Below, piece by piece: positions 12,738-14,199 of a stretch of DNA of 32,700 bases. Below the pieces are notes generated by a model that was given only the letters and a program-made list of their open reading frames with translations, did not search any database and was not told the DNA's origin. A program made the position numbers and the translations under genes. The DNA lies in NCBI GenBank assembly GCA_025363475.1, contig JANYDS010000060.1, positions 1 to 32,700 of the forward strand, in the 5' to 3' direction. The stretch is from Terriglobia bacterium (GTDB lineage: Bacteria; Acidobacteriota; Terriglobia; Bryobacterales; Bryobacteraceae). Position 1 is the stretch's first letter; each line of letters starts with the position of its first letter.

Positions 12738-12743
12738 TATAAT
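12738..12743 (+). promoter_or_regulatory. Possible -10 box of the pterin operon
   Basis: TATAAT, a perfect sigma-70 -10, lies 12 bases before the proposed GTG start at 12756, which would give a very short leader. No good -35 is seen 16-18 bases upstream, so an alternative mode of recognition or chance is possible. Confidence 0.35.
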
Positions 12744-12755
12744 TCTAGTGGACAC

Positions 12756-13166
12756 GTGCTCATATCAAAAAAAGTTGAATTCTCGGCCTCACATATCTGC
12801 CGTTCGCCGTTGCTTTCAGATTCTGAAAACGAAAGGGTCTATGGCCTGGCCTGTAATCCGATGGGACACGGCCATAACTATATCGTTGATGTCGCCATCG
12901 AAGGCGAACCGGACCCCGTTACGGGCATGGTGCTGGATTTGAAACGTCTTAAGGAAATCCTTGAAGAGAAGGTGCTGAGCGTTTACGATCATCGGTTGCT
13001 GAACCGGGAAGTGAAGCCGTTCGATGAAATCGTGCCCACGGTAGAAAATATTTCCATCGATATCTGGAACCGCCTGGCACCCAGTATCGAGGGGGGCGCG
13101 AAGCTGTTCAGCGTCCGCGTGTATGAAACCAGCGACTTGTTTGTGGATTATCGGGGTCCGGAATGA
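12756..13166 (+). CDS. 6-pyruvoyl-tetrahydropterin synthase family protein, paralogue 1 (lacks catalytic Cys)
   Basis: COG0720 enzymes convert 7,8-dihydroneopterin triphosphate (the FolE product) to 6-pyruvoyl-tetrahydropterin or related pterins. Zinc ligands are present: His13 (FSASH) and His38/His40 (GHGHNY). Asp78-His79 of the triad (VYDHRLLN), the pterin-anchoring Glu97 (PTVENISIDIW) and Glu124 (VYETSDL) are kept. The catalytic Cys position (Cys42 of the rat enzyme; ungapped alignment from memory) is Ala32, with a Cys one residue later (GLACNPMGHGH), giving CxxxxHGH instead of CxxxxxHGH. GTG 12756 is chosen since the first strand begins LISKKVEFSASH; upstream codons lie before the -10 box. 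It overlaps paralogue 2 by ATGA. It resembles eukaryotic-type PTPS more than QueD. Confidence 0.92.
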   Translation: MLISKKVEFSASHICRSPLLSDSENERVYGLACNPMGHGHNYIVDVAIEGEPDPVTGMVLDLKRLKEILEEKVLSVYDHRLLNREVKPFDEIVPTVENISIDIWNRLAPSIEGGAKLFSVRVYETSDLFVDYRGPE

Positions 13167-13594
13167 CCGTCCGCCTGACCAGACGCTATTATTTCGCGGC
13201 ATCGCACCGGCTGCATTCCCCGGCTTTGACCGACGCCGAAAATCGGGAAACCTTCGGCAAATGCAATAACCCCTACGGCCACGGGCACGATTATGAGGTG
13301 GAACTCACGGTCAGGGGCGAGGTGGATGCGATCACAGGACGAATGGTCGATGTCCCCACCCTTGACCGGCTGACCGAAGACCAGATTCTGACTCCGTTTC
13401 GCTGGCGTAATCTGAATGAAGAAGTGGAGGTGTTCCGCACAGAAGTACCGACCACCGAAAACCTGGCACGGGAAGTGGACCGCCGATTGCGAGTAGTATG
13501 GAGAACGGCGTTTCCGCAGGATGAGCCCCGCCTTGAAAAGGTTCGCATCCGGGAGACGGACCGCAACATCTGTGAAGTTACGGGATGTCCATGA
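13163..13594 (+). CDS. 6-pyruvoyl-tetrahydropterin synthase family protein, paralogue 2 (lacks catalytic Asp-His)
   Basis: The 143-residue product carries zinc ligands His15 (FAASHRLHS), His40 and His42, and a canonical catalytic Cys34 in [14 protein letters not shown] with the CxxxxxHGH spacing of mammalian PTPS. The pterin-anchoring Glu99 ([10 protein letters not shown]) and Glu131 (RIRETDRN) are also present. The conserved LDHxNLN motif that supplies the Asp-His part of the triad reads FRWRNLN, with Arg80-Trp81. Alone it should therefore lack the proton relay, the mirror image of paralogue 1. The ATG overlaps the preceding TGA and its own TGA overlaps the folE ATG, so the three proteins are translationally coupled, consistent with a hetero-oligomer fed by FolE. 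Confidence 0.92.
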
Positions 13595-14199
13595 ATAAAA
13601 AGCGCGCTGAAGTTAAGATATTTGCTCCGAAGAAAACGCCTGCTCCCATCGCGCCGTTCATTCACGGCATGCTTGAAGCCATCGGCGAGGATCCGTCGCG
13701 TGACGGCCTGCTTCGTACCCCCGAGCGGGTGGAAAAGGCAATGCGATTTCTGACGAGCGGCTATACTGCTGACCTTTCAAAAATCGTCAATGACGCTATT
13801 TTCGATGTGAAATACGACGACTTGGTGATCGTGAAGGATATCGAATTCTTCAGCATGTGCGAACACCACATGCTCCCGTTTTACGGTAAAATGCACATCG
13901 CCTACATCGCCCGGAACAAGGTGATGGGCCTCAGCAAACTGCCGCGCATTGTAGATGTTTTCGCCCGCCGTCTTCAGATTCAGGAGCGGCTGACTCAGCA
14001 GGTGGCTGAGTGTGTGCAGGAGTTGCTGGACCCGGTTGGCGTGGGAGTGGTGGCTGAAGCGCAGCATTTTTGCATGATGATGCGGGGCGTGGAAAAACAG
14101 AATTCGTCCACTGTCACGAGTGCGATGCTCGGGGCTTTTAGGGAAAATAAGGAAACCCGGGATGAGTTTCTGTCGCTGATTCAATCGCGGCGCAGCTAA
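13591..14199 (+). CDS. folE: GTP cyclohydrolase I
   Basis: FolE converts GTP to 7,8-dihydroneopterin triphosphate, the first step toward folate, tetrahydrobiopterin and, through QueD, queuosine. The roughly 202-residue product has zinc ligands Cys and His in [15 protein letters not shown] (Cys92, His95 counted from ATG 13585) and Cys163 in [14 protein letters not shown], plus [17 protein letters not shown] and the C-terminal SAMLGAF. I chose ATG 13591, overlapping the PTPS stop as ATGA with GGGA five bases upstream; ATG 13585 adds only two residues. It is the type I, metal-dependent enzyme. It supplies the substrate of the two preceding PTPS paralogues, which makes the operon a pterin module. 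Confidence 0.96.

Follow-up and report, generated by a model that had tools for sequence, protein, structure and literature searches.

Two overlapping genes of a soil acidobacterium, here called A and B, very probably encode the two subunits of a single 6-pyruvoyltetrahydropterin-synthase-type (PTPS-type) enzyme whose catalytic triad is composite, the cysteine coming from B and the aspartate-histidine pair from A. Judged from their residues, the two sister proteins probably work only together. For the lineage that carries them the best reading is an obligate heteromer, and for relatives in which both proteins keep a full triad (32 of 155 pairs) a facultative one. The division of the triad appears to have been reached repeatedly across Acidobacteriota.

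The genes lie in a stretch of 32,700 nucleotides, all of which was analysed and is called the window below. A sequence-only reading of this DNA had described two PTPS open reading frames coupled by an ATGA overlap, and both the frames and their coupling were confirmed (Table 1). The product of the folE gene that follows, GTP cyclohydrolase I, makes the substrate expected for A and B. A divergent thioredoxin-like gene is present upstream of A, and the short gap between the two contains TATAAT (window 12738-12743), a possible -10 element. The genome has a third family member, the QueD-like gene L088 (C-E-N-V-HGH), on another contig (G000 contig C58).

Table 1. Genes and residues of the A/B locus (12,756-14,199), in window positions
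Feature	Position	Strand	Remark
Paralogue A	12756..13166	+	PTPS-fold protein, 136 aa, GTG start, TGA stop; Asp-His kept, catalytic Cys missing
His13 of A, zinc ligand	12792..12794	+	all three zinc His in 147/155 A copies
Ala32 codon of A, at rat Cys42 position	12849..12851	+	Cys here in 45/155 A copies
Cys33 codon of A, next to Ala32	12852-12854	+	alignment
His38 of A, zinc ligand	12867-12869	+	
His40 of A, zinc ligand	12873-12875	+	
Asp78-His79 of A (rat Asp88-His89)	12987..12992	+	conserved in 155/155 A copies
Glu124 of A (rat Glu133)	13125..13127	+	present in 145/155 A copies
ATGA overlap, A stop/B start	13163..13166	+	same -4 spacing in 65/144 adjacent pairs
Paralogue B	13163..13594	+	PTPS-fold protein, 143 aa, ATG start, TGA stop; Cys and zinc site kept, Asp-His missing
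His15 of B, zinc ligand	13205..13207	+	all three zinc His read in 154/155 B copies (N-terminal part of the remaining copy, L158, unread)
Cys34 of B (rat Cys42)	13262..13264	+	conserved in 155/155 B copies
His40 of B, zinc ligand	13280-13282	+	
His42 of B, zinc ligand	13286-13288	+	
Arg80-Trp81 of B, at Asp-His position	13400..13405	+	Asp-His kept in 86/155 B copies
Glu131 of B (rat Glu133)	13553..13555	+	155/155 B copies
folE, GTP cyclohydrolase I	13585..14199	+	269.8 bits, cut-off 174; overlaps B end

Membership of both proteins in the PTPS family is supported by profiles and by structure models. The Pfam model PTPS (PF01242) is matched by A with 110.3 bits and by B with 87.4 bits at a cut-off of 22.4, and a profile built from copies of both proteins aligns with nearly the whole of rat PTPS (1b66, E 1.4e-49). 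The AlphaFold2 models have pLDDT values of 95.2 (A) and 95.0 (B). As single chains, their best PDB matches are human PTPS 3i2b for A (TM 0.94) and rat PTPS 1gtq for B (TM 0.90). TIGR00039 (6PTHBS) is the best NCBIfam model for both, but its scores of 90.5 bits (A) and 58.4 bits (B) stay below the cut-off of 125.5 bits. The NCBIfam QueD model (PTPS-I) gives 61.9 and 45.1 bits for A and B against a cut-off of 89.25, the C-x3-HGH spacing of that subfamily is absent from both, and neither protein has Glu in place of the catalytic Cys, the mark of PTPS-III, the residues there being Ala32 in A and Cys34 in B. The residues of PTPS-II are present in the two proteins jointly and in neither singly. The C-x5-HGH spacing with a catalytic Cys is found in B and not in A, whereas the Asp-His of the triad is A's alone. 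Judged from sequence, part of the triad would be missing from a homohexamer built only of the window's A or only of its B.

The alignment bears out the earlier description of a split triad, in which A has Ala at the Cys position and keeps Asp-His, and B keeps Cys and has Arg-Trp for Asp-His. It also agrees that the zinc histidines and the pterin-anchoring Glu are kept in both window proteins. In all 19 genomes of the window's genus that were read (18 relatives and the window's own), A has Ala at the Cys position, and B reads RY (13), RH (4), RW (1) or HH (1) at Asp-His; in five of the 19 B copies the His stays and the Asp alone is changed. Since the same split recurs in all 19, it is not an effect of assembly or chance. 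The displaced Cys33 of A, which had been raised as a caveat, was considered as a relocated nucleophile and rejected. It is found in two of 110 Cys-less A copies (the window's and that of L036), and this lack of conservation makes a relocated catalytic residue unlikely.

The wider comparison used a sample of 155 A/B pairs from Acidobacteriota, comprising 144 adjacent, six naturally fused and five unlinked pairs. A first set of 61 genomes (the window's own and 60 relatives) gave adjacent pairs from 54 relatives, or 55 with the window. No family match was found in G023, G039 and G055 (84, 64 and 87% complete), one match each was found in G027 and G058, and a second family match of G036 lies outside the sample. 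To this set were added 80 named loci, the best 80 of 570 confirmed relatives, and 67 regions taken from among the matches listed in a search of 396 Acidobacteriota genomes, of which at least 215 matched, many weakly. Sampling was not by the residues tested, but the 80 named loci had been selected in order of how closely they resemble the A of the window. Removal of duplicates left 189 loci with 345 domains. Where the two genes are linked, A is the one that lies upstream; the five unlinked pairs were named by their residues, and the tree agrees with the naming for those that it includes. Outside the 155 pairs stand L104, L201, the triple fusions L228 and L229, the QueD-like L087 and L088, and 15 duplicate loci. 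L104 is a metagenome-assembled contig in which B is broken across frames, with its Cys motif readable in another frame, and the A beside it is intact. In L201 (G124) a complete PTPS and a copy that has the zinc histidines but neither Cys nor Asp-His lie about 1.1 kb apart.

A simple residue rule emerges from these pairs. The claim that only B Cys with A Asp-His completes a site holds throughout, since none of the 155 pairs has lost this mixed site, while each of the alternative combinations fails in a large number of them: the reciprocal mixed site (A Cys with B Asp-His) is intact in 32, the all-A site in 45 and the all-B site in 86. Both proteins are complete in 32 pairs (L149 of Granulicella is an example), only A is impaired in 54, only B in 13, and in the other 56 both are impaired in a complementary manner, leaving a full triad in neither protein alone. 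The exchanges at Cys and at Asp-His, whose co-occurrence had been proposed as a check, are not strictly coupled: they coincide in the 56 complementary pairs and not in the other three states. The word obligate suits these 56, among them every one of the 19 pairs from the window's genus, but not the remainder; against obligacy everywhere stand the 32 pairs with both triads and 67 more with one complete homomeric triad. Pairs in which both copies keep the whole triad had been named as a refuting case. We read the 32 that were seen as the state before the losses, because none of the 155 counted pairs has both copies Cys-less or both without Asp-His. By family, complementary pairs account for 26 of 35 pairs in f1 and one of 17 in f3; they are also present in families f13, f20, f40, f59, f72 and f84, in named Bryobacterales and Solibacteraceae, and in one record titled Acidobacteriaceae. 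Family f8 has none among 18 pairs. Where B lacks Asp-His (69 copies), both residues are gone in 34, the His only in 20 and the Asp only in 15. In the complementary pairs the His itself is missing from B in 45 of 56 and kept in 11, with the Asp alone changed (to Glu in L100 and L103). As the His is still present in these 11, some of them may keep weak activity alone.

Gene arrangement provides a further view of the two half-sites. The five unlinked pairs (G115, G158, G236, G252 and G338) give the clearest double dissociation. All five A copies keep Asp-His and are without Cys, without Glu and without at least one zinc His, and all five B copies keep Cys, zinc ligands and Glu and read DR, DR, DC, ER and DR at Asp-His. 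Natural A-B fusions, each a single open reading frame of 287-328 aa, occur at L190, L192, L208, L216, L217 and L220 (families f13 and f20), and all six show the same split of the triad. In the five f20 fusions domain 1 lacks Cys and Glu, and domain 2 has QG or SG. The triple fusions L228 and L229, also single frames, carry Asp-His without Cys in domains 1 and 2, and Cys without Asp-His in domain 3.

Unpaired PTPS genes behave differently, keeping both Cys and Asp-His in 21 of 23 cases. Fifteen of the 21 fall on the B side of the tree, three (L225, L226, L232) form its outgroup, and three were omitted as near-duplicates. The genomes with unpaired genes were searched again at E 1e-5, and 22 further matches were read, together with one in G409. 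These 23 comprise 14 of the form C-x3-HGH (QueD-like), five of the form E-P-x-HGH and four that are unassignable (L287, L296, L298, L299); no A type was recognisable among these matches in the genomes with unpaired genes or in G409. Every A-side copy in the sample had a B in the same genome. Of the two exceptions among the unpaired genes, L230 lacks Asp-His; it runs to the end of its contig and is similar to the fused type. The other, L227 (G409 contig C12), is B-type with Asp-Cys, and neither query found an A partner in G409 (96% complete), which is a real exception unless A sits in the missing few percent of the genome. A Fisher test of 0/21 against 69/155 gives p 1.7e-5, but it leaves out L227 and L230, ignores kinship and is not relied upon.

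These arrangements bear on whether A contributes residues or only influences B. A could be a non-catalytic activator (prozyme) or an assembly subunit that switches B on allosterically, the Asp-His of B being dispensable. Such activation has a precedent in trypanosome deoxyhypusine synthase and AdoMetDC, where dead paralogues boost activity 1000-3000-fold (PMC3663545), and the zinc site kept in 147 of 155 A copies would suit it. However, an activator does not need Asp-His, yet the pair is present in every A copy, even those without Cys, zinc His and Glu, and partnerless PTPS genes keep it as well (21 of 23), which makes an activator role unlikely. The zinc ligands, together with the Glu kept in 145 of 155 A copies, also argue against A being purely a donor, as they are more than a donor needs.

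The Cys position of A is occupied by Cys in 45 copies, Ala in 60, Glu in 17, Asn in 9, Ser in 8, Gly in 7, Arg in 3, His in 2, Lys in 1 and Leu in 1, with a gap in 2. The 17 Glu-type copies would suit two separate homomeric enzymes acting on different reactions, for example A as a PTPS-III-like aldolase and B as a lyase without an Asp-His relay. Glu for Cys yields 6-hydroxymethyl-dihydropterin in Plasmodium (PMC2229834), and an aldolase A would fit G029, which has the Glu-type copy L059 and lacks both FolB and a QueD-like copy of the C-E-x-x form. But 12 of the 17 come from genomes of family f3 in which FolB is present, Ala stands at this position in the window's A, and the spread of residues resembles drift rather than a new catalytic residue. 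Separate enzymes, which also leave the fusions, the operon and the partner-dependent loss unexplained, are very unlikely.

A tree built from 266 domains (146 loci), for which the three trait columns of the alignment were masked, places A-type and B-type copies mostly on two sides; the A side is weakly supported at its base (50), and long-branch members are uncertain, such as domain 1 of L190, which falls on the B side. Parsimony gives at least 21 changes at Asp-His in paired B (18 with branches under SH-aLRT 80 collapsed, nine with those under 95, and 22 events when losses only are allowed) and three changes at Cys in A (three with weak branches collapsed, one with SH-aLRT of at least 95 only), and by itself does not distinguish loss from regain. 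Since this is a weak single-gene tree of 135 columns, the changes are best described as having occurred many times, not by an exact number; a sign test counts them as independent and is not relied upon. Asp-His is lost in none of 155 A copies and Cys in none of 155 B copies. Neighbouring columns also differ in conservation (139 pairs, alignment numbering). Near Asp-His, the values for A and B are 1.00/0.37 at Asp62, 1.00/0.17 at Trp105 and 0.99/0.37 at Arg81. Near the Cys pocket, Lys32 has 0.97 in B and 0.31 in A, and the Arg15 column has 0.99 in B and no residue above 0.35 in A. That A or B is a decaying duplicate under relaxed selection, its complementarity a coincidence, is hardly credible: canonical residues are lost in each copy and relaxed duplicates are common, but B Cys and A Asp-His have each been kept without exception against frequent change of the other element, the structure models of both proteins show a PTPS fold with high confidence, and the folE neighbour persists.

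In the composite enzyme that we favour, the nucleophilic Cys would come from B, along with the zinc site and the pterin-binding Glu, and the Asp-His pair from A, with Asp78-His79 as the proposed donor half in the window. The triad of rat PTPS is known to form between subunits (the title of Burgisser 1995 has 'Intersubunit catalytic triad'), and Nar in 1994 reportedly found that the triad His comes from the other trimer. With a triad formed between subunits and split over A and B, only A-B interfaces of one orientation would be catalytic. If the His does come from the other trimer, an A3 ring on a B3 ring would have three complete and three dead sites, and mixed rings would not be needed. Known PTPS is built of six identical subunits (PMC10767420), arranged as two trimers placed head to head, with each site between three adjacent monomers (PMC7546909). 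A would form a complex with B, perhaps an A3B3 hexamer of two rings set head to head, in which three sites are live and three dead; both half-of-sites activity and this stoichiometry are plausible. The A and B domain spans of the L217 fusion are 3 bases apart, a short junction that would be easier within one ring, and the triple fusions fit a one-chain ring, so the stoichiometry may differ between lineages. Plasmodium PTPS from which the nucleophile is removed (Glu38Leu) gives no product (PMC2229834), and this supports A alone being dead.

The FolE protein would feed the complex with dihydroneopterin triphosphate, and the product would be 6-pyruvoyl-tetrahydropterin, as in PTPS-II. A folE homologue on the same strand within 6 kb accompanies 137 of 144 adjacent pairs and five of six fusions. 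FolB is absent from 19 of 19 genomes of the window's genus. The motif C-E-x-x-HGH, which we take to be a dual PTPS-I/III motif, is present in 29 of 30 QueD-like copies from the window's genus, family and class (loci L001-L032, one per genome). Either such copies or FolB probably provide the folate, with G029 as an exception, which makes a PTPS-II-type product the likeliest for the pair, a view we hold with moderate confidence. The pair was also considered as a FolB replacement; this is unlikely for the window, as the QueD-like copies of its genus read C-E-x-x-HGH. Across family f1 (QueD-like copies L001-L032, L266-L274 and L088), FolB absence goes with C-E-x-x-HGH or T-E-P-x. In the three f1 genomes whose FolB match exceeds the cut-off (G025, G030, G033) the QueD-like copies have C-A-x-x, the motif is T-E-P-x in G022 and G031, and a second QueD-like copy in G006 reads C-G-R-L. 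G029, with QueD-like C-A-T-P and no FolB, is a misfit to this pattern. Its A copy (L059) has Glu at the Cys position, and a folate role of A is possible in this genome.

Other pterin-related genes were also surveyed. Pterin-4a-carbinolamine dehydratase is present in 57 of 61 genomes, and the window's own is one of them. Phenylalanine hydroxylase is present in 13 of 61 and not in the window's genome; a link of the pair to this enzyme is unsupported, given this count and a genome (G058) that has the hydroxylase without the pair. Sepiapterin reductase was found in none of ten genomes by TIGR01500, a model that is weak for bacteria. A reading frame that looks glycosyltransferase-like from its sequence lies just upstream of the pair, on the same strand, at L174 and 36 other loci. 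Searches for viral and for plasmid relatives found none.

The pair most likely arose when a homomeric PTPS was duplicated and its copies then underwent complementary losses that were first tolerated and later hard to reverse. The system is a natural replicated experiment on the passage from a homo-oligomer whose active sites lie between subunits to a heteromer that is obligate. One phylum still holds pairs that represent the time before the losses, the stages in between and the outcome, so that a neutral ratchet and an advantage can be tested against each other with extant genes. More tentatively, one duplicated PTPS may have turned, repeatedly and irreversibly, into a heteromer with a two-gene triad, the end states being unlinked pairs and fusions of two or three domains of which one is catalytic. 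In most pairs, and also in that of the window, the A sites still have their zinc ligands and Glu although many of these sites are dead, and on the same tentative view they might be pterin-binding regulators that set FolE flux. For annotation there is a warning, since both genes match the PTPS family, yet neither should work alone in the window's genus. The rule for finding such pairs by sequence is Asp-His in A and Cys in B.

No paper on a heteromeric PTPS was among the literature matches listed, in which subscription journals are sparsely covered, so that one may still exist. Compared with known systems, the pair is like PTPS-II (rat 1b66/1gtq, human 3i2b) in fold (TM 0.90-0.94), in the C-x5-HGH of B, in zinc histidines and Glu, and in folE context. 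It is unlike PTPS-II in having two paralogues, each without part of the triad, where the known enzyme has identical subunits. QueD/PTPS-I, PTPS-III and the dual I/III forms of COG0720 share the superfamily and the substrate with the pair, but they are known as single-gene enzymes, and the window's genome has L088 as a separate QueD-like gene. Metformin hydrolase, a heteromeric ureohydrolase, is likewise encoded by an operon of two same-family genes and is called 'heteromeric' in the title of PMC11399263, but it belongs to an unrelated family. In the trypanosomatid DHSc/DHSp and AdoMetDC/prozyme systems, as described in PMC3663545, a duplicated homo-oligomer became an obligate heteromer of an impaired and a dead paralogue, an outcome that is predicted here from residues. 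These systems differ in fold and reaction, and their dead paralogue activates by a cooperative structural change, whereas A is predicted to supply two catalytic residues. In its predicted working the pair is nearest to a PTPS-II with a divided triad, and in principle to heteromers of the prozyme type.
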